Positions 15,056 through 47,196 of a DNA stretch of 64,000 bases are shown piece by piece. Position 1 is the first letter of the stretch. Every line of letters begins with the position of its first letter. The translations under genes and the position numbers were made by a program. Below the pieces are notes generated by a model, which was given only the letters and a program-made list of their open reading frames with translations, did not search any database and was not told the DNA's origin. Source of the DNA: Chrysophaeum taylorii (Eukaryota; Sar; Pelagophyceae; Pelagomonadales; Pelagomonadaceae); NCBI GenBank assembly GCA_029834535.1, contig JAQMWT010000671.1:124001-188000 (forward strand), given 5' to 3'.

Positions 15056-18000
15056 TTAGGAGGAGGCCCACCATTTGCGGATGGCCTCGTGGGCTTTGGC
15101 CTGGGCGTCGAGCATGGACCAGTGGTTTGTTTCCGGGAGGTACGCGAGGGTGGCCTCGGGGATCACCCGGAGACGATCGCGGCGGCGGGTAGAAGAAGGT
15201 CTGAGGTCGAGGATTTTCTTGGTGGTGATGATGGATTCGGAGTTCTTCTCGTTCTTCTTTTCGTGGTAGGCGCGGAGGAGACCGGTCGCTTGTTCGAAGT
15301 GTCGACTAGCGGCTGACGAAAAATCGTCGTCGAAGTGGGGGGGGTTGGAATCGACGACGGCGGCCTCGAGGGGGGCGTCGACGAGCACGAGACCGTCGAC
15401 GACGACGTCGCGTAATAAGCGGGCAACCTCGTAGGCGAGGACGCCGCCGTAGGACCAGCCTCCCAGGACGAGAAATTTCGATTTCGGGAGCGCACGGACG
15501 GCGTCGGCCGCGCGCGAAGCCGCCTCCTGGATGGACTCGAAAGGGAGATCGGTCGTTCGACCGGACACGACGCCGTCGTCGAGAGCCGTCACCCGCCAAT
15601 CACCACCAGAAGCAATATCATCATCATCGTCGGGGGAAAGTTTCGCGGCCAAGGGAAGGTAGCAGAGACCCGAGGCGCCCGCGGGATTGAAGAGAACGAG
15701 GAGGACGTCGCCGGACGCGGCGAGAGCGAGAGGTTCGAAGGGGTTGTTCTCGGCGGGTCGTTCGGTCGCCGCGAGGGCCGCGACCGTGGGTCGTTCGAGG
15801 AGATCGCGAATAGAAAAAGTGCTGTTTCCAAATTCGGCGTTCAGGTCCGCGAGGAGTCGAAGCCCGGAGAGCGAGGTGCCGCCCGCGCGGAAGAAGTCTG
15901 TCTCGGAGCCGCAGTCGCGACCGAGGTGTTTGGCGAACGCCGCTCGGATTCGCCGCTCGACGTCCGACTCGGGTTTTGATGATGATGATGATGATGATGC
16001 GAGAGAGGAGACTCTGGGGGGGGGTGTAGTAGGAGTAGGAGTACGGGGGAGCATGTCGCGGCGGACCTTGCCGTTGGAAGAGAGAGGGAGCGAATCGACG
16101 CGAACGACGCGGGACGGAAGCATGTAGGTCGGAAGGCGGCGCGTTAGGGAATCGCGGACGAGGCCGTCGTCGCCAACCACGAACGCTAGGAGTACATCGT
16201 CGCGAACGACCGAGGCCGCCGCCGTCACTCCGGGAACGTCGAGGAGGGCCGCGTCTATTTCCCCCAATTCGACGCGGTTTCCCCTCAATTTGACTCGCGA
16301 GTCTTCGCGTCCGAGAATCTCGACCACCCAATCGCCCGGTTCTTCCGCTTCCCGTAGTCTTCCGAGGTCGCCCGTGCGGAAGAGGTTGTTTTCGACGAAC
16401 TGCTGCTTTGAGGACTCGAGATTGCGGTGGTAGCCGAAAGCGACGCCGACGCCGCCGATGTAGATTGGACCAACGACGTAACAAGGAAGCGGTTCTAAAG
16501 TCCGATCGTCGAGAATGTGTAGCGATTGGCCGTATAGCGGTCGTCCGTAGGGCCACGAAGTCCACCCCGAAGGCGGGACGCCGGTTTCGGGGACGACGAA
16601 CTCGTTGCTCCAGACGGCTGCCTCGGTCGCGCCGCCCATGATCACGACGTCTCGAATACCAGAACGTTTGGCTTTGAGCGGCAGGGTGAGCGGAACGACG
16701 TCGCCGGAGAGCATCGCGAGCCGGAGACTTGTTGGCTTTTTTTGTCCAAAAAATGATAACGCGAGCTCGAAAAGCGCGGGGACCGAGTTCCAGATCGTCG
16801 CTCCCGCCCGGTTCGCGAGGTCGACCCAGGCCTTGGGGTCCATTTCTGCGGGGAGCACGAGTCTCGCGCCCGCCATCGCCGCCCCAAAAATATCAAAGAC
16901 CGAAAGATCGAAGGCGAGCGACGAGATGCCAAAGATAGCGTCGGAGGGTCCGATACCCCACCTCTCGACGATGTCCGAAATCGTGTTGACGGCGCCTTTG
17001 TGGTGGCACGCGACGCCCTTTGGTTTGCCGGTCGATCCGGAAGTGTAGATGACGTAGGCCAGTTTGTTGTTGGGAGTCGGTATCCTTTTAGGAACCACCA
17101 CAACCCTCCTACCATCCTGGTAGTAGTATTCGTCGCCGTCCAGAACTCGTCGGATCAAATTCTTATCGACCAGAGCGCGGCCCGCAGAATCGACGATGGC
17201 CAGGTCAGCAGCAGCATGGGTCATCACGTAAGAAACGCGGTCGGCAGGCCACGAAGTCGCGTCGATCGGAAGGTAGGCAGCGCCCGCGAGCAAAACAGCG
17301 TGGACGGCGACTATCTGGCGCCAGCCCTTGCGCATCACGACCGCAACGATCTCGTTGTTGTTGTTGTTGTTGTCCTCCTCTTCAATGACGTAAGCTGCGA
17401 GGCTCCTCGCGCGCGCGGCAACCTCTCGGTACGTCATCGTCGTCGAAGATTCCGCGACGACGAAAACGGATTCACCATCTTCTTCTTCTTCGCGGTGAAA
17501 GAGAGCGTCGTGGAGGAGGGTCGAGTCGGGGAGACCGAGGCGGTACTTTTCGAAAGGCGTCGCGGCAACCGAAGACCCGCAGCAGCGGAATTCTACGGGT
17601 CGATCCCAATCCCTCAAGGCGAGGTGGTCGAGAACCGTCTCGTAAGCGTCGACGATCGATGCCAGAAGGGGCTCGGGAAAGAGTCCTTTCAGAAAATCGA
17701 GCGACGCGCGAGCGGTGCCGCTCGGATCGTCCTTCACGGCATTAACGCAGGCCGAGTGCGGCACGCGTTCGGTAAAACGAGTTTCTCGGAAGAACCAGTT
17801 GTTCCGGTCGTGCGCGAGGAGCGATCCCTCGACGCCGACGGGGGTCGTGAATACGAAGGGCGCGACGGCTTTCTCGAAGGTCGCCTCGGTCTCTCGATTC
17901 AGGAGCGCCATGACCTGAAGGCCGTCGAATGCCGCGTGCTCGAGGGATACGGCGAGAGACGCCGCGATTCTCGCGACCGCATCTTTCAAGGAATTCGCGT

Positions 18001-21000
18001 TACGAAGATCGATTTCCACCAAGACCGTAGAGCTACAGTTGCCGATTATTTTGAGAACGTCGGGGTGCACGCGGAACCTCTCGCACAACAAAACGTTGAG
18101 AAGAAAGGGTTCTTCTGCCGAATGTCGCGCGAGCGCCATCGCGTAGGCGGTCAGAAGTGCCGACGGAATCGTGGCGTTACGTTTTCGGCAAGCGTCGCGG
18201 AGCGCCTCCCATCGTTCGATGGAAAAATCCACCGCACGATTTTCGAAAGTCGTTGCGGCGGTTTCGAGAGTGAATAAAGACGGACCAGCCCGCGGGAAGT
18301 CGGGATCTTTTAGTCGCGAAACCCAGTAATCGCGCGCTACGCGATATTCGCCGCCGCCGCTGCTACTACTCCTCCTCCTCGAGGCCGCCGCCGATACCAA
18401 AGACCTCGCGTAGCGGCCAAACCTAAGGGACAACCGCGGCAGCGACTCGCAATAATTGTTGTTGTCGTCGTAAAGGTCGCTCAACTCCGAGCGGAAGACG
18501 AGGTCGCCGACCGCATCCATCAGAAACAAGCTCACGGCGACGCGGATTTTGTCGCCGTTCTCGACGACGCCGACCGCGAAGAGCGGCCACTCGAAGACAG
18601 AACCTATCGCTCGTCCGGACTCGAAGTAGTCGCGCGACGCGTTCTCGAGAATCAAGACCGGTCTCGTCTCGACGATTTTCAGCGTTGCTTTGTCCGTCAC
18701 GACGCACTGGAGCGTATCGTGGCGCGATACGAGGACGTCGAACGCTCTCGCGAGTCGAGACGCGTCGATTCGATGCTGCTTTGGGACCCACTCCCAACAG
18801 ATTTGGGGAGCGATCGGCTCGGAACCTACGGTTGCGGCGTGAAGGCCCACGAAGTGCGCGGCTCCGACCCCAAAGAGAGGGTACTCGTCATCATCATTAT
18901 CGTCGTCGTCCAAGAGCTCGAACGGAGCTTTTTTGTGGGTCGAGGCGAGGACGCCGCCCCTTCGCGCGGCCAATCCTCGGACGGTCGGGGTCTCGAGGAG
19001 GTTCCGGAGCGAGAGGCCCGTACCCGAGAGAATTCTCATCGCTTTCAGGGAATCAACGCCGAGCGAAAATAAATTTGCCTCGGGATCCACCTCTTCTCCC
19101 AACTCGAGGGCAAACATGCTCGACAGCGTCGACTCGTCTACCGAGATGATGGTGGTGGTGGTGGTGGTCACTTCTTGTTGTTTCACCACCTCGACGTCGC
19201 GGTAACTACTACCACCACCCAAGCTCAGGACGAACGGAAGAAGCTCGAGGGTCGCGCCCTTCGCGAGGGCTTCCAAACACACGTCCAAGGCACGAACGAC
19301 GCGACGGAGCGTATCCTCGTCGACGTCCGTCGACTCCGAGACCGCCGAAAGGTCGTACCGGTCGCCGTGGCGAACGCACCGCACGGACAGCGCGAAACCG
19401 GCCGCGTCGTGGATGATCTTGCCGTCTTCGACAAAACCCGCCAAAGATACCCACGTTTTCGGTCCGGGCTGGTAGTCGAAGAGTACCGAGCAACGAGTCG
19501 TCCCTCGGACGGTCGCGCGCGCAGCAGCAGCAGCAGCAGCAGCAGCTCCTCCTCCTCTGATCGCGCGCGCGATGCCGTCGAGGTCGCGCTTCCGCGCGAG
19601 CGCGACCGTCGCGAGCGCCGGTCCCACGACATTATTCTCTCGCACCGCAAAAGTCGCCGCGTACGAGTCCAAATCGTCGAATCCGGCAGAGTCCATCGCC
19701 GCGAGAAACGCGGCGTGCGCGATAGCTGGAGGTTGAGGCGCCATTTCCGCGGAACGTCGCGAGGCGCGGACCGGGGCGACCGCGTCGAACCGCGGTCCTC
19801 GCAGACTACTACTACTACTGTTCGTCGTCAAAGTCAAAGTCGTCGTCGAAAATGATGATGATGATGGAACCTTCTGCCGTGCGGCGGCGGCGGAAAAGGC
19901 ATAATCGCGCCACCGCGGCGCCGGATTGGACGGTTTTTCGTCTCCGAGGAAGACGAAAAGGTCGTCGAGGACAGTTCTGAGCGAGAGTCCGTCTATCACG
20001 AGGTGATGGAAAGTCGCCACGAGTCGATCCCCAATAACGCCCAGGCGCGCGAGGCACGGTTCGCCGCGTTCCAGAGCCGCCAAAACCTCCTTCCGCTGCT
20101 GCCGCGCCCCCGAATCCGTAGCCCCCACCCTCGCCGACACCTCGTCCCAGACGCGCTGCGTCGTTCCGCCGTGGAACGAAGACCGAAGCGATTCGTGACG
20201 CTGCACGACCAACTCCCACGCGGTTTGGAGTTTCGAGGCAGATGTCTTCATCACTAACCGCCACTCGAACGTAGCGAGAAACAACGACGGCCGCGCCAGC
20301 ATCGACTTCTGCAACGGGGTCGCCTCGAACTCGTTTGGAATTTCGTGCTTCTCTTTGCTACTACAAGAAGCGGCGGCCTTGACGATATCGGCGACCGCGG
20401 TGGCCTCGAGGACGACGGTCGGCGGGATATCGATGCCGTGGTCTCTCGCCAGCGCACCGACAAACTCCAACGCGGCCAACGAGTCGAGCGCGTCGAAACT
20501 ATTGCTCTCACCCAAAACCTCCCGCAGCGCGAAAAGCACGGCCTTCTCGGTAAGGTCTGCTGCTGCTGCTGCTGCAACCGGAAGAAATATCGGCGTTTTC
20601 CGCGGGGTACCGACGACGGTCGTCACAACGGAAACTCTTGGGCCTGCCCCAAACGCAGCCAACACGAGCCTCTCCCCCGGACGCGGGCGAGCCTCGACCA
20701 GCGCCGTAGGCACCGAGGCAGCGCCGCAGTTTCCCGTCGATCCAACGCACGACGGAACTTTTACGCCGCCGCCGCCGCCGCCGCCGCCGTCGTCGTCGTC
20801 GTCAAAAACCCCCAGGCTCCGCGAAATAGCATCGAGGATGCGCTTGTTTGCCTGGTGCAAGACGTACTTGTCGGCCGAGTCCCAGCCCGCCTTGTTTAAA
20901 GCCTCGGCGATCGCCGGCGGAGCCGCGCGAGTCGCAAACTCAAAAACCTCGGCGCCGCGCATGCGCGTGGGCGCGTACGAAAGACCTCCCTTCTCTAACG

Positions 21001-21559
21001 GCGCCGCGAGGGCGTCGGGGCTCGCCTCCGGAAACCCTCGAACCACCGCCACCGTATCCACTCCCGAAGCCCGCTCGAAGACCGCGGCGGCCGCGCCGTC
21101 CCCGAACAGCACCGCCGTACTCCGGTCGGTCCAGTCGGTGAGCCGCGAGCCCAGAGCATCGCACCCAACCACGCACGCGCGCGTCGCGCCGAGCCCAGCC
21201 GCGACGGCGACCGCGTCCACGAAACCACAGCAAGCCGACCTCACGTCGAGACTTCCGCACTCGGCCGTCGCGAGACCTTTACCGCGCAACGCGCGCGCGA
21301 CGGCGGCGGCGTCTCCGAAGGCGTCGGCGGGCGTGCTCGTCGCCACCACTACCAAGTCCACGGGACCCGTCCCCGCGCAGGCCTCGCATGCGCTGCGTAT
21401 CGCGAGCGACAACAACGACTCTTCATCGCCAAGCAGTCGCCGCGATTCGATCCCGGTGCGCTGCCGGATCCAGGCGTCCGTCGTATCGAGCTGCCTCTCC
21501 AACTCGCTGTTGGCCACGGCCCGACCGCCGAGGGCACGGCCCCACCCAATCAGCAGCAT
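15056..21559 (-). CDS. KASIII-ACP-C-PCP-Cy-A-PCP-TE megasynthase (FabH/NRPS hybrid)
   Basis: This is a 2167-residue intronless reading frame from an ATG. Residues 1-320 are a complete FabH-like KASIII with the Cys110 (RSACCGF), His235 (LHQAN) and Asn277 (GNCGAAS) triad. A carrier domain follows with DSLAALEF (Ser360). A condensation domain spans about 410-790 with HHLVIDG at 518-524, then a carrier GVDSLKA (Ser837). A second domain at 890-1312 has the layout of a heterocyclisation domain (YPLFGVGAAHFVG, LLCERFRVHPDV), but its DxxxxDxxS motif is worn (SLFLMDAVGD). The adenylation domain (about 1345-1840) has TSGSTGKPKG, FDLSVFDIFG, GGATEAAVW, RTGDLGRL and NGKVRRDML. Then come a carrier (GGTSL) and a thioesterase (GWSYGG, NHWSML). 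Visible specificity residues resemble cysteine-type codes. No transit peptide is visible, so it is probably cytosolic. Confidence 0.88.
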   Translation of the reverse strand: MLLIGWGRALGGRAVANSELERQLDTTDAWIRQRTGIESRRLLGDEESLLSLAIRSACEACAGTGPVDLVVVATSTPADAFGDAAAVARALRGKGLATAECGSLDVRSACCGFVDAVAVAAGLGATRACVVGCDALGSRLTDWTDRSTAVLFGDGAAAAVFERASGVDTVAVVRGFPEASPDALAAPLEKGGLSYAPTRMRGAEVFEFATRAAPPAIAEALNKAGWDSADKYVLHQANKRILDAISRSLGVFDDDDDGGGGGGGGVKVPSCVGSTGNCGAASVPTALVEARPRPGERLVLAAFGAGPRVSVVTTVVGTPRKTPIFLPVAAAAAADLTEKAVLFALREVLGESNSFDALDSLAALEFVGALARDHGIDIPPTVVLEATAVADIVKAAASCSSKEKHEIPNEFEATPLQKSMLARPSLFLATFEWRLVMKTSASKLQTAWELVVQRHESLRSSFHGGTTQRVWDEVSARVGATDSGARQQRKEVLAALERGEPCLARLGVIGDRLVATFHHLVIDGLSLRTVLDDLFVFLGDEKPSNPAPRWRDYAFSAAAARQKVPSSSSFSTTTLTLTTNSSSSSLRGPRFDAVAPVRASRRSAEMAPQPPAIAHAAFLAAMDSAGFDDLDSYAATFAVRENNVVGPALATVALARKRDLDGIARAIRGGGAAAAAAAAARATVRGTTRCSVLFDYQPGPKTWVSLAGFVEDGKIIHDAAGFALSVRCVRHGDRYDLSAVSESTDVDEDTLRRVVRALDVCLEALAKGATLELLPFVLSLGGGSSYRDVEVVKQQEVTTTTTTIISVDESTLSSMFALELGEEVDPEANLFSLGVDSLKAMRILSGTGLSLRNLLETPTVRGLAARRGGVLASTHKKAPFELLDDDDNDDDEYPLFGVGAAHFVGLHAATVGSEPIAPQICWEWVPKQHRIDASRLARAFDVLVSRHDTLQCVVTDKATLKIVETRPVLILENASRDYFESGRAIGSVFEWPLFAVGVVENGDKIRVAVSLFLMDAVGDLVFRSELSDLYDDNNNYCESLPRLSLRFGRYARSLVSAAASRRRSSSSGGGEYRVARDYWVSRLKDPDFPRAGPSLFTLETAATTFENRAVDFSIERWEALRDACRKRNATIPSALLTAYAMALARHSAEEPFLLNVLLCERFRVHPDVLKIIGNCSSTVLVEIDLRNANSLKDAVARIAASLAVSLEHAAFDGLQVMALLNRETEATFEKAVAPFVFTTPVGVEGSLLAHDRNNWFFRETRFTERVPHSACVNAVKDDPSGTARASLDFLKGLFPEPLLASIVDAYETVLDHLALRDWDRPVEFRCCGSSVAATPFEKYRLGLPDSTLLHDALFHREEEEDGESVFVVAESSTTMTYREVAARARSLAAYVIEEEDNNNNNNEIVAVVMRKGWRQIVAVHAVLLAGAAYLPIDATSWPADRVSYVMTHAAADLAIVDSAGRALVDKNLIRRVLDGDEYYYQDGRRVVVVPKRIPTPNNKLAYVIYTSGSTGKPKGVACHHKGAVNTISDIVERWGIGPSDAIFGISSLAFDLSVFDIFGAAMAGARLVLPAEMDPKAWVDLANRAGATIWNSVPALFELALSFFGQKKPTSLRLAMLSGDVVPLTLPLKAKRSGIRDVVIMGGATEAAVWSNEFVVPETGVPPSGWTSWPYGRPLYGQSLHILDDRTLEPLPCYVVGPIYIGGVGVAFGYHRNLESSKQQFVENNLFRTGDLGRLREAEEPGDWVVEILGREDSRVKLRGNRVELGEIDAALLDVPGVTAAASVVRDDVLLAFVVGDDGLVRDSLTRRLPTYMLPSRVVRVDSLPLSSNGKVRRDMLPRTPTPTTPPPRVSSLASSSSSSSKPESDVERRIRAAFAKHLGRDCGSETDFFRAGGTSLSGLRLLADLNAEFGNSTFSIRDLLERPTVAALAATERPAENNPFEPLALAASGDVLLVLFNPAGASGLCYLPLAAKLSPDDDDDIASGGDWRVTALDDGVVSGRTTDLPFESIQEAASRAADAVRALPKSKFLVLGGWSYGGVLAYEVARLLRDVVVDGLVLVDAPLEAAVVDSNPPHFDDDFSSAASRHFEQATGLLRAYHEKKNEKNSESIITTKKILDLRPSSTRRRDRLRVIPEATLAYLPETNHWSMLDAQAKAHEAIRKWWASS

Positions 21560-26768: not shown

Positions 26769-27803
26769 CTAGCAGCGGCGGCGGTGTTCGTCATCGAGTT
26801 CGGGGAGTTGGAGGACCGTTCCCGTGTCGGTGTCGGGGATCCGGTCTGTCGTGCCGCAGGAGGTGACGTTGAGCCTGGCCTTTCTTACCTCGGGGACCCA
26901 GCTGTAGTCGTTTGGAATCGTCGAGTCGAGGCCCCACCAGTAGATGAGGACCATCGGGGCATCATCGGCCGTGGTGTCGAATTCGTGGGGGTGTTCGCGC
27001 TGGTTGACGTGGATCGCATGCTTGGCGCCCTTGAGGTCGATCTCGGTGGTGAGGTGGTAGTGGCCGTCGACTTCGTGCCAGTCCCAGGTCCGCCATCGCC
27101 CCCCTCCTGCAATTTGCCAATAGGCTTCGTCGGCTTGATGGGCGTGTGCTGGATAGCAAACGCCCGGTTCGATCGCGGCAAAGCCGAGAACTGCCGTCTT
27201 GGTGCCGTGGCGACACTGGAGGACGTTGAAATACCCACTCAACCTCGAGACGCAGTCGACCCAGTATTGGTAGGCGCGTCGTTCTTCGGGACTAAGGTCG
27301 AGGAAGGCCTCGAACCCGCCCGCGACGGGCATCCCGCACCATCGTCCCTTCGACGCGCGATACCCGTCGCCGCTGAATATCGCCATCGACCGCAACTCCT
27401 CCACCGTCGTCCCCGTCTCCTTGGCGAGCAACGTGAGCACGGTCTTGGAGGGCCGGTACCCGAGGTTTTCGTGGCCGCGGATCGGGAACACGGGGTTCAA
27501 CAGACTCTGGCCGCACTGCCAGTCGCTCGTCCGCTTCGCAATTTCGTACTTGTCTATGCGCATGCACCTGCCGCCGAGCCGCTCTTTCACGTGTTCGGGA
27601 AGATGGAGGTGCCCGCGATGGTCACTCACGACGGGCCTCACGTACTTGACCAGAGCGACGGGGATGTTGGCTCGAGTCGGATACACCAACAACGCGACGG
27701 CCACTGCGAACACCAACAACGCCAAAATCACCACTCTGCGCTTCCTCGACCGCTTCTTCACGACGAACACGCTGTGCCGAGGGACAGCCCCATAGACCAC
27801 CAT
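26769..27803 (-). CDS. DMSP lyase-like cupin, N-terminal membrane anchor
   Basis: The first ATG gives 344 residues (MVVYGAVPRH). A Lys/Arg-rich stretch followed by the hydrophobic VVILALLVFAVAVALLVY (residues about 25-42) suggests a type II anchor or signal anchor. The C-terminal half is a cupin with the pattern of bacterial DddL/DddQ DMSP lyases: PGVCYPAHAHQADEAYW holds the HxHxxxxExY metal and catalytic set, followed by GGGRWRTW, and a second histidine motif HPHEFDT near IYWWGLD. Such enzymes split dimethylsulfoniopropionate into dimethylsulfide and acrylate. Fold and metal site are well supported; activity is inferred. Known algal DMSP lyases of the Alma type belong to another family, so a eukaryotic cupin would be notable. 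Confidence 0.7.
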   Translation of the reverse strand: MVVYGAVPRHSVFVVKKRSRKRRVVILALLVFAVAVALLVYPTRANIPVALVKYVRPVVSDHRGHLHLPEHVKERLGGRCMRIDKYEIAKRTSDWQCGQSLLNPVFPIRGHENLGYRPSKTVLTLLAKETGTTVEELRSMAIFSGDGYRASKGRWCGMPVAGGFEAFLDLSPEERRAYQYWVDCVSRLSGYFNVLQCRHGTKTAVLGFAAIEPGVCYPAHAHQADEAYWQIAGGGRWRTWDWHEVDGHYHLTTEIDLKGAKHAIHVNQREHPHEFDTTADDAPMVLIYWWGLDSTIPNDYSWVPEVRKARLNVTSCGTTDRIPDTDTGTVLQLPELDDEHRRRC

Positions 27804-28790
27804 CTTCGGTGTCAAGGAGAAGAATGAGCCTGCCTGTTCTTCTTCAGAGCTAGTTAGCGCAAATGCGTAACGCCTGGCGGGAATCTTCGTACGTTCAGGG
27901 GTTTAGGAGGAGGAGTCAAAAAACGGACTCTCTCCCATCCTATTTGTATTGATTCTCGAAGGAAATGCAAGTTGTACACAGTGTGAGGGCAAGCTGACCC
28001 TAATGATTATCTGGAAACTTGTAAATTTGGGACGATTCGTTCATTAAAGACCCTAATCGTTATTACACTTCAAATTGATTCGGCAATTAAACACGTTTGT
28101 TTGTTTTCTGCAACAACGAAAAAAAAAACCACTCCTTCACATAATAACTATAAATTTCTTCTTGTCGTCGAGATTTCTGACGACTTCCGCCATTGTAGTA
28201 CTTTGATCACCGCGCGAAAGCAACATAAAAATTCGAGGCCGCCAATGCATCATCGACCTCACGCAGATTGCGCGGACATCAAAAACACACGCGGCGGACC
28301 AAGGGCGTCAATGCCCTGTGGATCACTGTTCAGGTCGAGATCCGGGGGTGTGGACTTAGTAGTCAAGAGGGGGGGGACTCGCAATTCTCTTTCCACATCT
28401 AGATCTCGTCCATTCGAGCCTCCTATCCTACCATACCCTATCTACCGGCAGACGAAAATCGGGCGGTTGTCCACGCGCGAGAAAAAAGGCGAGCAGGCTC
28501 GCCACTGGAGGCCGGTTTTTTTTTGCGACCGACCGTCCTTGGAGTTTTCGTCGTCGAATACCGCCTCGATGGTACCGGGTAGCAACAAGGATGACCCAAC
28601 AACTCCCAGAGAATCTCGACGCGCGACCCAACCAACATCCTCGGTAGCTTCGAGCTGCCACTCGTTGTCCGCTTCCTCGGGTGGCGAGTCCCAACCTAGG
28701 CCTTGACCTCGTCAACGCTCGAGTGGCCGCCTCGCGTCCAGTTCGAGACGCTGGGTCGTCGCGGTCCGGAGCACTGGCAGCCTTGGACGC
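27804..28790. other. Intergenic region
   Basis: AT-richer from 27940 to 28200. Frames on both strands at 28100-28715 have no recognisable domain. No gene is called; the promoter of the DMSP-lyase-like gene should lie near 27804-28000. Confidence 0.45.
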
Positions 28791-34303: not shown

Positions 34304-34637
34304 CGCGACCTCCGCGACCCCGAGGAGACCCCTCCGTGTTGTGGTATGTGTGTTGAAGAAGCTATATATCTTCCTTTCTTTTCTTTCTTTCCGTTGTTCT
34401 CTCTCTCTCTCTCTCTCTCTCTCTCCACTTGGCGCCGCGCGGCGGGCCCACCACCGCCGCCTTTCCTTTTTGGTTGGATTCAATCTCTCGTCCTTCGGGC
34501 CCCCCCTTCAGGCGCCGCTACTACCGATCATCGTCCCGCCCTCCTAAATAATAAAAAAAAAAGATGTCGTCGTTGTTGTCGTGGTCGTCGTCTATCCGTT
34601 GTTGGTGCAGAAAGATCGCAACGGATCATCCCCATCC
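34304..34637. other. Short intergenic region with (CT)n
   Basis: Holds (tc)n at about 34400-34425 and pyrimidine-rich DNA upstream of the isochorismatase-GS start. No gene is visible. Confidence 0.6.
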
Positions 34638-36611
34638 ATGAACGCCGCCTCGTTCTCGCCGCGGACCGAGGCCCGGGAGACGGGCCTTTTGGCAGCGGAG
34701 ACGACCGCCGTATTGGTCGTGGACGTGCAGAACTACTGCTGCCACCGCGAGGGCGCCGATTGGAAGGATCGCAAAACCGAATTTTACTGGCGCGCGGTGT
34801 CGCGGTCTGTCGAGCGCATCTCCGCCCTCATCCACAAGGCCCGCAAGGTTGGGGTCGAGGTCATGTACACCGTGATCGAGTCTCTGACGCTCGACGGGCG
34901 CGACCGGTCCCTCGACTACAAGATCTCGGGGTTCAACGTGCCGCGGGGGTCGTGGGCGGGTCGCGTCGTCTCTTCGATCGCGCCCGCGGGCGACGAGATC
35001 GTCTTCCCCAAGACTTCGTGCGACGTGTTCGTGGCCACCAACATCGACTTCGTGCTCCGGAACCTCGGGACCAAGCAGCTCGTGATCTGCGGCGGGCTCA
35101 CGGACCAGTGCGTCGAGTCGGCCACGCGACACGCCTGCGACAGGGGCTACCTCGTGACGCTCGCGACCGACGCGTGCTACGCAGAAACGCAGGATCGCCA
35201 GGACGCGGCGCTCCGGGGGCTCGGGGGCTTTTGCCGCCAGCGCGAGGTAAGCGCCCTCGTAGAGGAGCTCGACGCCTTTCCCGAGGTGGTAGCAGCAGCA
35301 GCAGCAGCATCGCCGAGCGGAGGAATAGTTCCGGGCGGGCGGCGCTACGTCCGGTTCGAGCTCGCCGACCTCAACTGCAAGAGCCTGTCGAAGGTAGTCC
35401 CCGACCGGAACAAGGAGAAGGCGGTCTACATGTATAGCGGCGTGTTGGCCATGGGCGCCAACTCGGAGGTGCTGTGCTTCCCGCCCGAAATCGCCGCGGC
35501 CGGGTGTCCGAACTTTTTGCTCGACCCAAAGTGGGAGACGGCGACGCCGCTCCCGTGGGCGCCCGAGGTCGTCCGCGTCATCTGCGAGATGGACCAGTGT
35601 CCGGCTGTCCCGAGGACAATCTGCCGGCGCCTCGCCGAACGCCTGAAACGGACCCACGGCCTGGAGGTCCTCGCCGCGTGCGAGTACGAGTTCACCGTCG
35701 CGTTCGAGAAGGACGGCTCGTGGGCTCCGGCGTTCGACGGCGTCGACATCTTCGCGACCCTCCAGCACGCCAAGGTCGCGGATCTCACGTACGAGATCGA
35801 GGATGCGATGCACCGCGTCGGGGTCGACATCCTTACGATCAACGCCGAGTACGGCCCGCAGCTCGAGATGACCTTTAAGCCCGCGTTCGGCGTCGAGAGC
35901 GGCGACCAGGCCGCGACCTTCAAGGAGGGCGTCAAGGAAATCTGCATGAAGAAGGGCCTCCGCGCGACCTTTATGACCAAGCCCTTCGGAGTCAAGGGCA
36001 TCGGCAACGGCGGCCACTGGAACCACTCGCTCTGGAAGGACGGCCGCAACGCGACGGGCGACGGACCGAGTAACGAACGTCTCTCGTCGATCGGAGAGGC
36101 GTGGGTCGCGGGCATCCTCAAGCACGCTCCCGCCCTCGAGGCGATCTGCGCGCCGACCCCGCCCTGCTACTGCCGCCACGGCAACTGGGCCCCGACGCAC
36201 GCCGACTGGGGCTACGACGATCGCATGGCCGCTGTTCGCGTCAAGCGCGAGAACCAGGACGACAATTTCTACGTCGAGCTCCGGATGCCCTCGGCGAGCT
36301 CGAACCCCTACCTCGTTATGGCTGCTACGATCGCCGCGGGCCTCGACGGCCTCGACTCCCAGGCGACCCTCCCGCCGGACCGCAAGGCGGCCAAGGACGC
36401 CACCACGCCACTTCCCACCAATCTTGAGGACGCCCTCCGCGCCCTCGAGCAGGACGCCTACATGCAACATGCCCTCGGGCCCGACTTTGTGCGCTGGTTC
36501 ACTCTCGTCAAGCGCGCCGAGATCGAGACGATTAACTCCAAGTACCGCGCCTCCGACACCGACGCCGACACCTCGCGAGCCTGGCAGCGCATGTACATGG
36601 AGTACATTTAA
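34638..36611 (+). CDS. Isochorismatase-like hydrolase fused to glutamine synthetase-like domain
   Basis: The first ATG in frame (MNAASFSPRT) gives 657 residues. Residues about 20-205 form a cysteine-hydrolase (isochorismatase-like) domain with the triad Asp (LVVDVQN), Lys (VFPKTSCD) and Cys (GGLTDQCVESATRHA), then GYLVTLATDACYA. After an Ala/Ser linker, residues about 225-657 match the glutamine synthetase / lengsin fold: EMDQCPAVPRTICR, a GS-core NAEYGPQLEMTFKP, the GNGGHWNHSLW signature and VELRMPSASSNPYLVMAA. Isochorismatase-family amidases release ammonia from amides, and GS-like domains ligate ammonia or amines to carboxylates, so coupled nitrogen transfer is an attractive inference. Intronless; EFG1 begins 19 bp after the stop. 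Confidence 0.82.
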   Translation: MNAASFSPRTEARETGLLAAETTAVLVVDVQNYCCHREGADWKDRKTEFYWRAVSRSVERISALIHKARKVGVEVMYTVIESLTLDGRDRSLDYKISGFNVPRGSWAGRVVSSIAPAGDEIVFPKTSCDVFVATNIDFVLRNLGTKQLVICGGLTDQCVESATRHACDRGYLVTLATDACYAETQDRQDAALRGLGGFCRQREVSALVEELDAFPEVVAAAAAASPSGGIVPGGRRYVRFELADLNCKSLSKVVPDRNKEKAVYMYSGVLAMGANSEVLCFPPEIAAAGCPNFLLDPKWETATPLPWAPEVVRVICEMDQCPAVPRTICRRLAERLKRTHGLEVLAACEYEFTVAFEKDGSWAPAFDGVDIFATLQHAKVADLTYEIEDAMHRVGVDILTINAEYGPQLEMTFKPAFGVESGDQAATFKEGVKEICMKKGLRATFMTKPFGVKGIGNGGHWNHSLWKDGRNATGDGPSNERLSSIGEAWVAGILKHAPALEAICAPTPPCYCRHGNWAPTHADWGYDDRMAAVRVKRENQDDNFYVELRMPSASSNPYLVMAATIAAGLDGLDSQATLPPDRKAAKDATTPLPTNLEDALRALEQDAYMQHALGPDFVRWFTLVKRAEIETINSKYRASDTDADTSRAWQRMYMEYI

Positions 36612-37241: not shown

Positions 37242-38744
37242 TTAAGTAGACGCGGTGTTCACGGGCGCCGGGCGGCGGAGGTAGGCGTATCGGGGATCTC
37301 GGAGGTCGACGCGCGCCCCGCCGTGCTCGTCGAGCCGGGCGACGTAGGAGCACTCCTTCCCGTAGGTCCGATTGAGCGAAGCCCAAGGGTCGTTCGGGAT
37401 GTTGACTCTGAGATCGTAGATCTGCATTTCCCGGATCGGAAAAAACTCGGTGGCGCGGAAGTACTCTTGGTGAAAGTAGGAGACGCGGGGGCCATTCCAA
37501 ACGTTGGCTTCCCCCCACCGCGACCGGTCGGCGCAAAGCTGCTTGGTCCAGACGTCCTCGGGAATAACGAGGAATGATGAATCGTCTCGAAAGATGTTGT
37601 CGGCGATCTTCGCGGCGGGGAGGCCCCAGGGCGGCCAGAGCGGCGTCTCGGCGTGGACCCAGGGCGCGTACGAGGCGTTCGCGAGCACGAGGACGTCGAG
37701 TTCGCAGGCCGAGTCAAATCTGTGAAAGAGTTTAAAACCAAAGCCGCAGCAGGGCCGGCCCTCGGCGTCGACCATACCCCGAAACTCGAGGACCTCGTTC
37801 TTCCTTTGGACCCGGCGCAGCAGCTCGAAGGCGTCGCCGGCAATCACGTAGACGTCGACGTCGCGCTCCCACGCGAGCAGGCCTCCGGCGCGCATCGCGC
37901 CCAACAACGTTCCGGCGCCGAGGGTCCACTCGAGATGTGTAGCCACGCGCGAAAAGTCCCGCAGCACCTCGTAGTTGCACTGAGCCGTGCCCGGGCGCGG
38001 CTCGAGGGACGCCTCCGCGGGGATGGGGGGGGCGTCGTCGTCTCGAACCGCGAGCCAACCCGCGATAATAAAAACAAAAATACCGAAAAAAGACAAGCGT
38101 AAACGTCGCCGTACGACGTAGACGTACACATAAGTCGTTCCCGACGTCGTGGCAACGGGGAGCTTGTGGGTAGCGACATCGCGATTCCCAAAAAAAAACA
38201 ACCGCGTCTCAGGTTGGCCGAACGAAACGCACGCGAAAACGCGGCCCGCGCGACAACACTCGGCCACCAACTGCTTGCCTTTTCCCTTGTCGGCGTTGCA
38301 GGCGAGGGCGTCGAGGGTGCCCTTGTCGAGGACCAGGTCGAACCCCCGGAATTCCGGCATCGCCGTCGCGTCGCTCGCCTCCCACGAGTTTTCGGGCCAG
38401 GCCTCGCGCATCGCGACTATCGCCTCGCTGCTCGCGTCAGCGTTCACCACCTCCCACCCCGTCTCCCGCGCCATCTCCACGCCCAACACCGAGGTCCCGC
38501 ACCCCACGTGCAGCACGCGCCGCGTTTTTTTTGGGGCGGCACGCATCACCGTCTCTTTCACCGTCCCCCAATCGCACAACCAATCGAATTCGGACCCCTT
38601 CGACGCGTGATACCGCTCCTCCCAGTACGCCACCTCTCCGTACCGGGCCTGCTTCAACTTCTCCACGTCCTCCAAGGTCCACACGACCTCCAGACGACCC
38701 GCCCGCCGCTTCTTCAGCTCACACGCCAGCGCGACGGGGTCCAT
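37242..38744 (-). CDS. SAM methyltransferase fused to membrane-anchored LicD/fukutin-like domain
   Basis: One 500-residue frame from ATG. Residues about 30-205 form a class I methyltransferase close to the eEF1A-lysine / METTL13-like group: YWEERYHASK, FDWLCDWGTV, motif I VLHVGCGTSVLG, VVNADAS, DLVLDKGTLDAL and FACVSFGQPETR. A hydrophobic helix follows (about 212-233, LSFFGIFVFIIAGWLAV). Then a LicD/fukutin-type domain: LEWTLGAGTLLGAMRAGGLLAWERDVDVYV, with the WxDDxD-like acidic site as WERDVD. LicD proteins transfer phosphocholine or ribitol phosphate to glycans in the Golgi. A soluble cytosolic methyltransferase ahead of a type II transferase is an odd fusion; two formerly separate genes read as one, or an unseen intron, remain possible. 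Confidence 0.72.
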   Translation of the reverse strand: MDPVALACELKKRRAGRLEVVWTLEDVEKLKQARYGEVAYWEERYHASKGSEFDWLCDWGTVKETVMRAAPKKTRRVLHVGCGTSVLGVEMARETGWEVVNADASSEAIVAMREAWPENSWEASDATAMPEFRGFDLVLDKGTLDALACNADKGKGKQLVAECCRAGRVFACVSFGQPETRLFFFGNRDVATHKLPVATTSGTTYVYVYVVRRRLRLSFFGIFVFIIAGWLAVRDDDAPPIPAEASLEPRPGTAQCNYEVLRDFSRVATHLEWTLGAGTLLGAMRAGGLLAWERDVDVYVIAGDAFELLRRVQRKNEVLEFRGMVDAEGRPCCGFGFKLFHRFDSACELDVLVLANASYAPWVHAETPLWPPWGLPAAKIADNIFRDDSSFLVIPEDVWTKQLCADRSRWGEANVWNGPRVSYFHQEYFRATEFFPIREMQIYDLRVNIPNDPWASLNRTYGKECSYVARLDEHGGARVDLRDPRYAYLRRPAPVNTAST

Positions 38745-42656: not shown

Positions 42657-43469
42657 TGGACGATGAAATTATGCAAGATGGCTGGTTTCTTCATGTGGCT
42701 GATAGAGCAGGAGGCTTCGATTATTTCTTACGTTGCACGTTTGCACCCGTACGTATACGTCGTCAATTTTTACGACATAACTCCTAGTTTGATGAGCTGT
42801 CGCGTGCGATTGTTGGTTTCCAGCCATCCGCTCCATTTGCGCGCAGTTCCAAAGACTTGCAAGAATATGCAGCAAAAGTTCGCCGGAGCACTTGGTTACG
42901 CCGACGAACGACATTTACTTCAGATGAACAATTTAGGATCATCACGAGCCGCGACCGACGCAGCTTATACTGTTACGCGTGTCCCGCTTCGCGTAGGACC
43001 GCACCGTTCCGATTACAGATCTCTGAATCTGGAAATGACTTCGGAGTTGCTGACGATGCCCCCTGATTTTGAGTGGGCCGGCTTCTCCAGGACGACCTCG
43101 TTGAAACACTTGGCGTCCGTCGTGCCACCTGACACGATGGCCTTATTAATACTCGATCTGCACAACTCTGTGACCAAGGAATTTCACCTGAGCGGCGAAG
43201 CTTTGCCGTCAGCGTTGAGTCCTGCAGACCGACCGTTTGATTATTATTTACAAATTGATGAAACCACCCTTCGTCACGTACAAGTTCCGCTGTTAAACAC
43301 GCGCACACGTGTCATAAGATGGGTGTCGACTGATGATCTTCAAGATCACACCAAATGGAAACCTCCAGAGGTACCGTTGATTCCGCCTGCAACAGACGAG
43401 CCGGGGACGTCTCATGCTTCTTCTGCTGGGCCCCCGACAACCAAATTTAGACGTTCCGCCAGATCCTGA
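42339..43469 (+). CDS. First sense frame of the gypsy element, unknown function
   Basis: A 376-residue frame from an ATG overlaps the Pol frame by 56 bp in a different phase, so Pol could be made by frameshifting or by internal initiation. The first 105 residues overlap the antisense methyltransferase fragment and are probably not native protein. From about 42690 the sequence looks coding (PLRVGPHRSDYRSLNLEM, DTMALLILDLHNSVTKEF). No zinc knuckle, major homology region or D-S/T-G protease motif is visible. It is probably a remnant or diverged Gag-side protein. Confidence 0.45.
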   Translation: MTSDRNGERKVPLVVSFFTFFRKFVDRRDVQLIFVPNDITNRKGFALSDDRRHFFRGSNCHPSSGPVALFARRTHSFDNSQLLVLSKRSDENLSSRDVGKGVTANHWTMKLCKMAGFFMWLIEQEASIISYVARLHPYVYVVNFYDITPSLMSCRVRLLVSSHPLHLRAVPKTCKNMQQKFAGALGYADERHLLQMNNLGSSRAATDAAYTVTRVPLRVGPHRSDYRSLNLEMTSELLTMPPDFEWAGFSRTTSLKHLASVVPPDTMALLILDLHNSVTKEFHLSGEALPSALSPADRPFDYYLQIDETTLRHVQVPLLNTRTRVIRWVSTDDLQDHTKWKPPEVPLIPPATDEPGTSHASSAGPPTTKFRRSARS

Positions 43470-46400
43470 GCGAGATCGGGAACCAAAGATTAAGAGCGAG
43501 CCGAGTGTTCGTGTCAAAGGCGAGAGGATCAACAAAAGCCACCCGGAAGTGAAACTAAAATACGAGAAAAAGTTCGATGTGCCATGGAAAGATGCGCCGC
43601 GCGATGTCGAGGGTGCACCACTGCCGCAGACTCCTGAGCATGTCAAGGACAACGAAGCGATTAAAGTTAAAATTCCTACGAAGGAAGAAGTTGACAAGGT
43701 TGTACAGGAGTTGGGAATTCCTGACAATCCGCACTTAGATGACGAGGCGAAACTGATGCTCCGTCATTGTGTGCAATATTCTTGGGCCTTTTTCGACCCG
43801 ATTATGAGACCTGTGGACTCACCTCCTGTGTCTCTACGATTCAAAGACGCGAATCCGCGACCGATTAAGATGACGCCCTACCGATTGACGCCTGCGAAGC
43901 TCGATTGTCTCCGCAAGCAGATCAGCGAGTGGTGCCGGGATGGAGTCATTCGTCCGGCCAACTCACCTTGGGGCTTTCCTGTGTTGATGCTTCCGAAGAA
44001 AGGAGCTGAGATTGGAACGTCAAACGCGTTCCGTGCTGCAGTTGACTTACGTCAGCTCAACGATCAATTGGTCAATGACAGTTGGCCAAACATTCGACAA
44101 GATGATGCTTTAGCCTTTCTCGCGATGAGACGATGGCGGACATGCATTGATATTAGGTGGGGATACCACAACCTTCGTCTAGATCCGGCAGCGCAGGACG
44201 CTGTCACGATGGTTAGCCCACTTGGCGCTCACAGTTTCTTGCGATTACCTCTAGGTGTGAAGACAGCCGGAGCTCTTTTCTGCAAGCAAATGGCGAGCGA
44301 CCTTTCGAAATGGATGTATCAAGACTTGGTTGCGTTTGTTGACGATATTATGATGGGATCCGACGATCTTCATCGTCATTTACAAGTTTTGATCGAAGTG
44401 ATGTGTCATTTGGCACAGAGAGGGTACAGCGGTCGAACCGCGAAGTTCCACCTTCTCAAGGATGATATAGAATTTCTGGGACATATTTCTACCCCAGAAG
44501 GCTTGAAGCCGAATCCAAAGACGCTGGAAGCACTGCAGAAGATGCCGATTCCAGGTACTTTACCGAATACTTCCCCGAAGACCCAGATACGCTCTTTCAT
44601 CGGCATGAGTAATTACTGCCGGCGATATGTGAAGGGCTACTCGAAGATTGTGGAACCGTTAAGACGATTATGCCTCGAAGGTGTAAAGTTCGAGTGGACG
44701 CCCGAGTGTCAGAAAGCTTGGGATACGATTATTGAAGCTTTGGTTGATTCCCGTGGAGTCTACCACGCCGATTATGATCTGCCTTTTCAGATCCGATCCG
44801 ATGCTTCCAAGGATGGACTTGGAGCATATCTCTTCCAAATTGTCGAAGTCAAGGACGATGCCGGAAGAGTGACTCGAGAAGAACGAGTAATTGAATACTG
44901 GAGCCGAGCTGTGCCGAAGGAGATGCGAAATTATGAGCCTCGTCGGCTAGAACTGCTGGCAGTTATACTTTCTCTAGAGCACTTTCGAGCCTACATAGAA
45001 GGGCACCGGACTGTTTTGGAGACCGATCACCGAAATTTGACGTTTTTACGTAAGGCGACGCACTCGTCTGGGCAGCTTGCTCGTTGGGCGATGCGCCTCG
45101 CCAATTTTGACCCTGAACTTGGTTACAAGCCGGGAAAGTCACCGGGAATGAGTATCCCTGACTGTCTCTTTCGCAACCCGATTGATTATGTCATCGAGAC
45201 TGACGAGTTTGGAGAACCTTTGAACCACGCGTATTTAGTGTTCCAAGAGCTTCCCCGACCTGTTGATGACCGAGGAGTTCCCGTCTCTGGCTGCCACTTC
45301 ATAATGTCGTTTATCACGACCGAACTGCCGGAAGACGGAGACGAAGACCCTGAAAAGGATCCGATGAAATTGGCTACGTCTCACGCTACGAGACAACGTC
45401 GGAAGAACCGTGCGCGTGATGAGCCACAGATCTTCAAGGACGCAGCCGCTTACAAAGATTATATCGATAAGATACCCGATAATATGACGCTCGCTGAGAT
45501 CGCACGTGAGCAAGAATCTGATGCTACGTGCGAGGATATTCGCTACCGAATGGCCCAAGGTCAGACGCCACGACGTTCCCGAGCGAACGAACGATTCGAA
45601 GTCGTTAAAGATGTTCTTTACCGCATTTCTGCTGATTTGCACCCGATGATTGTTGCACCTGCTACGTTGCGCAAACGCATTATTCGACTCTATCATGACA
45701 CTCCGGTTAACGGTGGTCATATGGGACGTCACAGTACCGTCCAGGCTATCCAAGAACGATTTTGGTGGCCCCACATGTCGAACGAAGTTGGAGTCTTCAT
45801 TGCTGAATGCTTAGTTTGTCAGAAAGCTCGTACGCCTGAGCCGAAACGAGCTGGACTCTTGCAGCAGCCCGTCTACGATGGTGATGGTGCTGTTCTATGC
45901 ATGGATTTATTTGGACCCTTGCCCAGCGCTGGTCCCGAGACGTATCTTCTAGTATTTTTTGATCCGTTCTCGCATTTCTTGATTCTGGATGTTTTGAATG
46001 ATAAGACTGCTGAGTCTGTCCTCGAGTCTTTTGTCATTAACATTCTCCTCAAGGGCTACTTGCCCCAGATGATTCGTACCGACAACGGTAAAGAGTTCGT
46101 GAACAAGTTGATGCGCGAGTTCTGCCATCTCTTTAACACCCGATACCAAACTACGATTCCTTATCATGCCCAGTCGAACCCGGCTGAGCGCGTCAACCGA
46201 TTTATCAAGGCCTTCCTCCGTGTTTGCCTTCAAGGCCGGAACATCACGGATTGGCCTGACTTTGCCCATTATATTGCGTTTTGCTACAACCGCAAGTTTA
46301 TTCCAGGCACGCAGATTTCCCCCTTTATGCTACGCCTGAACCGTCAGCCGATGCTACCGACTGATTACACGCTCATGGATTTTGATACACGATTATTGCC

Positions 46401-47196
46401 GAAGACTCGCTCTGATGCAGTCGCCGAGACTCGCGAACGATTGAAATATTATACACAGATCGTCCGCGAGGCTCGTGATAAAGCTTTGAAGAAACAGCGA
46501 TTGGCTTACAATGCTGATCATGTTGATGTTGAATACAAGGAAGGATCGCACGTTTTGCTCTACATCCCTTTCCTTCAGAACAAACTTCGACCGGAATGGC
46601 GAGGGCCGTTTATTATCAAGGAACGCCTCTCCCCGGTCACCTATAGGATTGAGTCTCTCGACTCTCCGCCCGAAGAAAGACGTGTTCATGTAAGTCAGAT
46701 CACGCCGGTGATGGTACCTCCGATCGTTGATCAAACCATCCGCAAACCCGAAAAAACCTTCCGTGATGATTATCAGCACGGTAAGTTTGTTGTTTTCCGG
46801 ATTCCTGACCGGAAGCGCTCTGATTGGCGCAAGAAGATTTATGTTGCCGAAGTTTACGAGCCTTACGATTATCAGAATGATCGTGTTGCTCTACATTTCT
46901 ATTCCGATTTGGGTCCGAGCGATGATGTCGCTTATTTCAAGCCGACCTCTCACCTTTCGCACCGCAAGCTCAAGCCCGAATTCAAGGACGTTGAAGGTCG
47001 AAGTTTCACCGACAAGTCCCGAATTTCCTCCAACACAACTCCTTGTGTCACGGATTTCGCTCCGCACGAGATTGACGTGTTGGTCCCCAAGTTTACTTTA
47101 CGCAGTGGTCGTGTTCCTGAACCGATCATCACCCGCGTCTACCAGAAGATTCGTTCACGAGATGCTCGTAAGGCGAAGCCGCGCTCCTCGCGCTAG
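43414..47196 (+). CDS. Gypsy Pol polyprotein: reverse transcriptase, RNase H, integrase
   Basis: This is an intact 1260-residue frame from ATG. The reverse transcriptase (about residues 150-350) has SPWGFPVLMLPKK, AVDLRQLN, IDIRWGYHNLRL, FLRLPLGVKTAGALF and the catalytic VAFVDDIMM. RNase H (about 450-600) has FQIRSDASKDGLGAYL, YEPRRLELLAVI and LETDHRNL. The integrase has an H2C2 zinc region (YHDTPVNGGHMGRH ... CLVCQKA) and a DDE triad: CMDLFGPL, IRTDNGKEF and SNPAERVNRF. A GPY/F-like WRGPFIIKERLSPVTYRI module follows, then a 150-residue tail with FVVFRIPDRKRSDWRKKIYVAE that could be a chromo/Tudor-like reader. All catalytic residues seen are intact, so the enzyme part looks functional. Confidence 0.92.
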   Translation: MLLLLGPRQPNLDVPPDPERDREPKIKSEPSVRVKGERINKSHPEVKLKYEKKFDVPWKDAPRDVEGAPLPQTPEHVKDNEAIKVKIPTKEEVDKVVQELGIPDNPHLDDEAKLMLRHCVQYSWAFFDPIMRPVDSPPVSLRFKDANPRPIKMTPYRLTPAKLDCLRKQISEWCRDGVIRPANSPWGFPVLMLPKKGAEIGTSNAFRAAVDLRQLNDQLVNDSWPNIRQDDALAFLAMRRWRTCIDIRWGYHNLRLDPAAQDAVTMVSPLGAHSFLRLPLGVKTAGALFCKQMASDLSKWMYQDLVAFVDDIMMGSDDLHRHLQVLIEVMCHLAQRGYSGRTAKFHLLKDDIEFLGHISTPEGLKPNPKTLEALQKMPIPGTLPNTSPKTQIRSFIGMSNYCRRYVKGYSKIVEPLRRLCLEGVKFEWTPECQKAWDTIIEALVDSRGVYHADYDLPFQIRSDASKDGLGAYLFQIVEVKDDAGRVTREERVIEYWSRAVPKEMRNYEPRRLELLAVILSLEHFRAYIEGHRTVLETDHRNLTFLRKATHSSGQLARWAMRLANFDPELGYKPGKSPGMSIPDCLFRNPIDYVIETDEFGEPLNHAYLVFQELPRPVDDRGVPVSGCHFIMSFITTELPEDGDEDPEKDPMKLATSHATRQRRKNRARDEPQIFKDAAAYKDYIDKIPDNMTLAEIAREQESDATCEDIRYRMAQGQTPRRSRANERFEVVKDVLYRISADLHPMIVAPATLRKRIIRLYHDTPVNGGHMGRHSTVQAIQERFWWPHMSNEVGVFIAECLVCQKARTPEPKRAGLLQQPVYDGDGAVLCMDLFGPLPSAGPETYLLVFFDPFSHFLILDVLNDKTAESVLESFVINILLKGYLPQMIRTDNGKEFVNKLMREFCHLFNTRYQTTIPYHAQSNPAERVNRFIKAFLRVCLQGRNITDWPDFAHYIAFCYNRKFIPGTQISPFMLRLNRQPMLPTDYTLMDFDTRLLPKTRSDAVAETRERLKYYTQIVREARDKALKKQRLAYNADHVDVEYKEGSHVLLYIPFLQNKLRPEWRGPFIIKERLSPVTYRIESLDSPPEERRVHVSQITPVMVPPIVDQTIRKPEKTFRDDYQHGKFVVFRIPDRKRSDWRKKIYVAEVYEPYDYQNDRVALHFYSDLGPSDDVAYFKPTSHLSHRKLKPEFKDVEGRSFTDKSRISSNTTPCVTDFAPHEIDVLVPKFTLRSGRVPEPIITRVYQKIRSRDARKAKPRSSR

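Follow-up and report, generated by a model that had tools for sequence, protein, structure and literature searches.

A FabH-type KASIII fused to a nonribosomal peptide synthetase in the pelagophyte Chrysophaeum taylorii

The 64,000-nucleotide stretch of Chrysophaeum taylorii DNA analysed here (the window; contig JAQMWT010000671.1, positions 124,001 to 188,000 of the forward strand) encodes a nonribosomal peptide synthetase (NRPS) headed by a β-ketoacyl-ACP synthase III (KASIII) of the FabH type. The gene is a single frame of 2167 codons on the minus strand, with its ATG at 21559 and its stop at 15056-15058. The encoded protein (P0001) has the domain order KASIII-ACP-C-PCP-Cy*-A-PCP-TE, where ACP and PCP are acyl and peptidyl carrier proteins, C is a condensation domain, Cy* an altered heterocyclization (Cy) domain, A an adenylation domain and TE a thioesterase. 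An initial annotation of this DNA had proposed such a frame and domain order in a eukaryote, and frame check and Pfam bear it out, with the strand being minus. The host is eukaryotic: the assembly measures 70.8 Mb in 697 contigs, and PH, HECT, PPR and retroelement frames lie in the window. The parts of the gene are the following.

15056..21559, minus strand: whole synthetase KASIII-ACP-C-PCP-Cy*-A-PCP-TE, 2167 amino acids (single open frame, Pfam, residue check)
20606..21559, minus strand: KASIII (FabH-type), residues 1-318, with Cys110, His235 and Asn277 (Pfam, fold, residue check)
20348..20569, minus strand: ACP1 including its linkers, with Ser360; predicted to carry malonyl and acetoacetyl (Pfam; boundaries approximate)
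19160..20347, minus strand: first condensation domain, C1, with HHLVIDG from residue 518 (Pfam; boundaries approximate)
18908..19159, minus strand: PCP2, Ser837, in a module without an A domain (Pfam; boundaries approximate)
17585..18907, minus strand: C2 (Cy*), heterocyclization-type, with SLFLMD for DxxxxD (Ser1010), Thr1238 kept and Val1272 at the catalytic Asp position
16025..17584, minus strand: adenylation domain, whose code begins D-L-F-N-M-S-M (seven positions) and is Cys-like
15755..16024, minus strand: PCP3, Ser1896 (Pfam; boundaries approximate)
15059..15754, minus strand: thioesterase, Ser2036/Asp2061/His2146 (Pfam, residue check)

In a Pfam search every domain named in the initial annotation scores above its curated cut-off: the N- and C-terminal parts of KASIII (PF08545 and PF08541; residues 104-164 and 227-306), three carrier domains, two Condensation domains, AMP-binding (1359-1711) with its C-terminal part, and Thioesterase (1954-2075). 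The C, A and PCP domains expected of an NRPS are all present, and an A domain is missing from one elongation module, C1-PCP2. Residues verified by script show the KASIII triad, the first HHxxxDG motif, the three carrier serines and the TE GxSxG motif (GWSYG around Ser2036) to be intact, as had been claimed. Upstream of the ATG lies a run of 18 codons, preceded directly by an in-frame stop.

The same fusion is found in a family of seven KASIII-headed proteins: P0001 from C. taylorii, P0002, P0003, P0004, P0005 from Aureococcus anophagefferens, P0020 from Aureococcus and P0031 from Pelagophyceae sp. CCMP2097. The seven make up a single clade. A search with the KASIII region, in which 7979 candidates were scored, returned seven proteins, namely P0001-P0005 and two fusions of an E1 dehydrogenase to KASIII; a search with the C2 region returned 55 proteins and newly added P0020 and P0031 to the family. 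Because these homologue searches drew their candidates by shared words and length, they could have overlooked a distant fusion. When 7990 candidates were scored with a full-length profile, 509 matched, and by their Pfam lists four of the best 120 carry KASIII, all of them KASIII-headed family members. A KASIII profile run over the 173 collected proteins gave nine matches, which are the seven family members and the two E1-KASIII fusions. In these two (P0006 and P0007) KASIII is joined to lipoyl domains and the E1 of an alpha-keto acid dehydrogenase, a layout that looks suited to making a branched starter and then using it.

Over their extent, all seven family members have KASIII (whole or partial), C1 and C2, and none has an A separating the two condensation domains. 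Because P0003, complete to the TE, aligns with the C. taylorii protein over 99% of its length at 42% identity and in the same domain order, a chance fusion is excluded on sequence comparison. P0005 and P0020, whose source names are 'acyl carrier protein' and 'methyltransferase', resemble broken models of one gene, and the seven proteins may therefore stand for six genes. An assembly or gene-calling artefact, or a KASIII part made as a separate transcript, is barely credible given that the frame runs without interruption, that codon-position GC is alike across all eight domains and that the fusion recurs in P0002, P0003, P0004, P0031 and, as broken models, in Aureococcus. As to a bacterial source of the fusion, at least 586 genome-contig stretches encode relatives; in the best 80 of them no frame matched C1, C2 or the A domain at a threshold of E <= 1e-8, for which carrier domains are too short.

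The checked residues of the fused KASIII are those of a FabH. The Cys-His-Asn triad, together with a Trp and an Arg that contact CoA, is identical in all five fused domains compared and in the FabH of C. taylorii; numbering and roles follow E. coli FabH. Where E. coli has Phe87, a residue associated with short starters, Phe is also kept (5/5). An Asp/Gly-rich insert lies shortly ahead of Asn277. All 50 listed Foldseek matches of the AlphaFold model are KASIII-family structures, the model (mean predicted local distance difference test score, pLDDT, 69.7) bearing on fold class only.

A KASIII of this kind could instead act as a transacylase that hands an acyl group from CoA straight to ACP1 without malonyl condensation, so that the chain would start with an acyl and not a β-ketoacyl unit. 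KASIII-like acyltransferases exist in NRPS-type pathways, among them AfcL of AFC-BC11 (PMC12186527), and a slow transacylase activity is known for FabH (PMC8666670). The triad of AfcL is described as Cys/His/Asp, however, whereas the third residue is Asn in 5/5 fused domains, and the KS-AT start of the sister family described below is a condensing one; we therefore regard transacylation as unlikely. Still less probable is a relic KASIII, with the donor for C1 coming from elsewhere: the fused clade has a long stem in the KASIII tree (0.63), but the checked catalytic and CoA-contact residues are unchanged over five diverged domains.

In that tree (87 rows, 79 of them bacterial) the five fused domains form one clade (100/100), and they lie beside a group (99/93) that holds the C. 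taylorii FabH together with four cyanobacteria and a single Bifidobacterium-labelled bin. The FabH of this bin (L083, whose label reads Bifidobacterium breve) clusters with those of Cyanobium and Vulcanococcus, so that its contig is probably mislabelled. Searching the C. taylorii genome with the fused KASIII gave two matches, itself and the FabH at C447. Bacterial and plastid FabH resemble the fused domain in fold, triad and CoA-contact residues, with cyanobacterial and C. taylorii FabH nearest in the tree; they differ in that the domain described here is fused to an NRPS and, in this exon, starts at the FabH core with no targeting extension; in the C. taylorii FabH frame about 60 residues separate the first Met from that core. 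P0001-P0004 and P0031 begin at the core or no more than about ten residues away. The simplest reading of these sequences would be a plastid-type FabH moved to the cytosol.

A sister family of ten proteins (P0010, from EukProt, P0011, P0013-P0019 and P0032), found through C2, has the same altered C2 behind another front. A ketosynthase (KS) is seen in six of them (P0010, P0011, P0013, P0016, P0019 and P0032) and an acyltransferase domain (AT) in five. The two proteins with a complete front, P0010 and P0032, start with GNAT-ACP-KS-AT-ACP, GNAT being a loading domain of the GCN5-related N-acetyltransferase type. That of P0032 matches PDB entry 7uci at 2.5e-25, GphF at 2.2e-20 and CurA at 5.9e-16, and the front of P0010 matches P0032 at 1e-10; Pfam found no GNAT in either protein and placed their front ACP matches under its cut-off. 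No Pfam match to a ketoreductase was seen in the six KS-bearing proteins. The AT pocket stretches of five proteins read AFH, AYH, AYH, PFH and AYH, with an aromatic residue ahead of the His, which we take to fit malonyl more than methylmalonyl.

GNAT domains of the CurA type decarboxylate malonyl and leave acetyl on the ACP (PMC3252866). In E. coli, a malonyl-ACP decarboxylase is able to replace FabH, which itself makes acetoacetyl-ACP from acetyl-CoA and malonyl-ACP (PMC8666670). On established chemistry the start of the sister family should be equivalent, giving acetoacetyl-ACP, the product that FabH reaches in one step, and it looks as though KASIII-ACP and the five-domain polyketide synthase (PKS) start can be exchanged for one another as heads of a common body. 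Our main argument for a condensing starter is that this body carries two starts which are unrelated but should yield the same product. Together with the triad kept in 5/5 domains, it lends sequence support to the earlier proposal that KASIII passes a β-ketoacyl-ACP to C1.

The sister synthetases (P0010, P0032 and kin) thus share with the KASIII-headed ones the altered C2, a Cys-like A and the expected β-ketoacyl start, and differ in having a type I PKS front (with a GNAT loader in P0010 and P0032) and an A before C2 in 8/10. The C. taylorii protein does not have the GNAT-ACP-KS-AT start and has KASIII-ACP in its place; a GNAT query gave no match in the C. taylorii genome, which is uninformative as it was run without a positive control. 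A replacement of KS-AT by KASIII is no longer claimed, since the trees disagree on nesting: the KASIII clade falls inside the KS-AT group, weakly, with C2 only (85/34), and the KS-AT group is a clade of its own with C2 and A combined (96/91).

The substrate of the A domain was predicted from the first seven code positions, placed by known motif positions. They are D-L-F-N-M-S-M in C. taylorii, D-L-F-N-F-S-M in P0002, P0003, P0005 and P0020, and D-L-Y-N-Y-S-M in at least one A of five of the nine A-bearing sister proteins; P0045, an L-cysteine ligase by its source name, has D-L-Y-N-L-S-L. These codes are Cys-like. In all six sister proteins that have both a first and a second A (A1 and A2; P0010, P0011, P0013, P0014, P0015 and P0017), the two are 82-98% identical and pair in the tree, and all seven code positions agree in five, P0017 differing at one. 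Therefore the two modules apparently call for one and the same residue. Identity between the first and second A is 48, 61, 65 and 100% in four further proteins of the set. The near-identity of A1 and A2 in the six sister proteins and in P0026 (100%) looks like homogenization.

In HMWP2 one A domain serves three carriers, PCP1 and PCP2 in cis and also PCP3, in trans (PMC9547227). The single A of the C. taylorii protein probably likewise loads both PCP2 and PCP3. As the sister A1 and A2 are near-copies with a Cys-like code, this is likelier than an A acting in trans, and a simpler reading exists than the initial suggestion of trans loading for the A-less C-PCP module. If another A did load PCP2 with another amino acid, the product would be acetoacetyl-X-Cys. 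The module without an A allows for it, and the C. taylorii genome has nine condensation-domain matches, seven of them outside this gene, so that other A domains are likely. Set against this are the sister pairs, near-identical in 6/6, by which one residue is apparently used twice, and P0016 and P0032, which likewise show no first A; we give trans loading roughly one chance in a handful or slightly better. The missing first A may have been lost or may never have been there, as A1 and A2 look homogenized and P0016 and P0032 show none.

The two condensation domains differ in what their relatives reveal. All PDB matches of C1 are weak (PvdL at 1.5e-7). For C2, the sequence matches to structures are Cy-bearing in 8/8 cases, and so are fold matches 1-18 of an AlphaFold model built from six sequences, which bears on fold class only (mean pLDDT 65.6). 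The 17 C2 domains, seven KASIII-headed and ten sister, form one clade against 60 bacterial rows (100/100); the C. taylorii genome has one match to this C2. In place of DxxxxD all 17 have SLFLMD, in which the first Asp is replaced by Ser and the second is retained. The first Asp is retained in 47 of the 52 non-HH bacterial rows with a letter there. At the position of the catalytic Asp (BmdB D1226) all 14 algal-type C2 domains that reach it have Val (Val1272 here), and 40 of the 41 bacterial rows that reach it have Asp. The active-site Thr (BmdB T1196) is kept as Thr1238 and is Thr in 14/14 C2 domains reaching the position.

That Asp is crucial for ring closure in Cy domains (PMC8807600, PMC9547227), and the DxxxxD aspartates have a structural role (PMC9547227). 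Because the crucial Asp is lost, condensation without cyclization is expected, and C2 is probably a heterocyclization domain that condenses without cyclizing. A C2 that still forms a thiazoline, giving a product with a heterocycle, would fit the Cy-bearing structure matches and the Thr kept throughout, and the bacterial Cy rows P0022 and P0025 likewise begin the DxxxxD motif with Ser, so that this change alone is not unique. With Val for the crucial Asp in 14/14 and Ser for the first DxxxxD Asp in 17/17, we consider ring formation improbable, if less so than transacylation by KASIII.

We propose that a plastid/cyanobacterial-type FabH serves as the built-in start module of an NRPS in a hybrid ketide-peptide megasynthase. 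Cys110 of KASIII would take acetyl from acetyl-CoA and condense it with malonyl on ACP1 to give acetoacetyl-ACP1, the malonyl reaching ACP1 in trans. The C. taylorii genome has 14 acyltransferase-family matches, one of them in a 347-residue frame (C191) that is FabD-like by size, and four ACPS-family matches. C1 would then join the acetoacetyl from ACP1 to an aminoacyl, predicted to be cysteinyl, on PCP2, with the single Cys-type A loading PCP3 and, most likely, PCP2. Lacking the cyclization Asp, C2 would join both residues with no ring, and the TE would release an acetoacetyl-Cys-Cys-type acyl dipeptide. On balance we favour this scheme, with moderate confidence.

Several points weigh against it. 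The two FabH models and the A-domain model of NCBIfam score under their whole-protein cut-offs (185.9/249, 159.5/292.1 and 301.2/317.4 bits). The starter could be another short acyl-CoA, acetoacetyl being a prediction for both the KASIII-headed and the sister family, and four of the ten sister proteins (P0014, P0015, P0017 and P0018) show no KS and were assigned by C2 alone. Loading of PCP2 would require the single A to act on an upstream PCP across C2, and gene calling could have missed a first A in P0016 and P0032. C2 may still cyclize via another residue. As to origin, the C. taylorii FabH, the only algal FabH in the tree, groups with cyanobacteria, outside the fused clade.

A broader and more tentative picture, which we hold at somewhat less than even chances, combines these elements: a plastid-lineage FabH captured without its targeting extension as an in-cis NRPS primer, FabH and GNAT-ACP-KS-AT-ACP as non-homologous interchangeable heads, and a Cy domain turned plain condenser that joins two Cys. 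The outcome would be a widespread acetoacetyl-Cys-Cys-type thiol metabolite of pelagophytes, including the brown-tide alga Aureococcus.

Parts of this arrangement have counterparts in known systems. Tenuazonic acid synthetase TAS1 has a C-terminal KS and is not known to carry a KASIII. TAS1 is likewise a eukaryotic hybrid joining an acetoacetyl unit to an amino acid, but uses acetoacetyl-CoA. AfcL and FatG (fatuamide cluster) are KASIII-family proteins beside NRPS parts; they are separate proteins, AfcL being an acyltransferase. HMWP2 of yersiniabactin biosynthesis has Cy domains and a single Cys A shared among PCPs, as we infer for the A here, but it has an aryl starter and no KASIII (PMC9547227).

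The initial annotation had suggested a new kind of initiation module, and in searches of the open-access literature we found no description of a KASIII-NRPS fusion. The genome paper of C. taylorii NIES-1699 (71 Mbp, 702 contigs) reports nine NRPS and 13 PKS genes by antiSMASH (PMC10366177); in the sections consulted a KASIII-headed NRPS is not described, and no word of its main text begins with 'KAS'. In the part of PMC10756674 used, which deals with Aureococcus transcripts, no named gene could be tied to a KASIII-NRPS. One Aureococcus NRPS with three C domains is listed in PMC4661987, and may or may not be the KASIII-headed gene.

Hybrid synthetases would gain a start module for which our searches found no published description, and KASIII-ACP and GNAT-ACP-KS-AT-ACP on one body would be a natural comparison for enzyme engineers to copy. 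The fusion suggests a route for a plastid fatty-acid enzyme into specialized metabolism and offers Cy domains that seemingly have dropped one of their two reactions. The product prediction can be tested in pelagophytes, bloom-forming algae among them.

The neighbourhood was surveyed with Pfam in 20 of the window's 85 open reading frames of at least 150 amino acids. Among these 20, no tailoring gene that could be linked to the synthetase was seen, and the nearest downstream frame with a match, 5 kb away, belongs to the major facilitator superfamily (MFS). Clustering is not a major feature in C. taylorii (PMC10366177). Elsewhere in the window, a frame at 26769-27815 (minus strand) matches DMSP_lyase (PF16867) above cut-off at E 3.7e-7, and one at 34581-36611 (plus strand) combines an isochorismatase domain with a glutamine synthetase catalytic domain. 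A single frame at 37242-38744 (minus strand) matches both LicD and methyltransferase, and at 43414-47196 (plus strand) lies a retroelement frame that encodes reverse transcriptase, RNase H and integrase domains.

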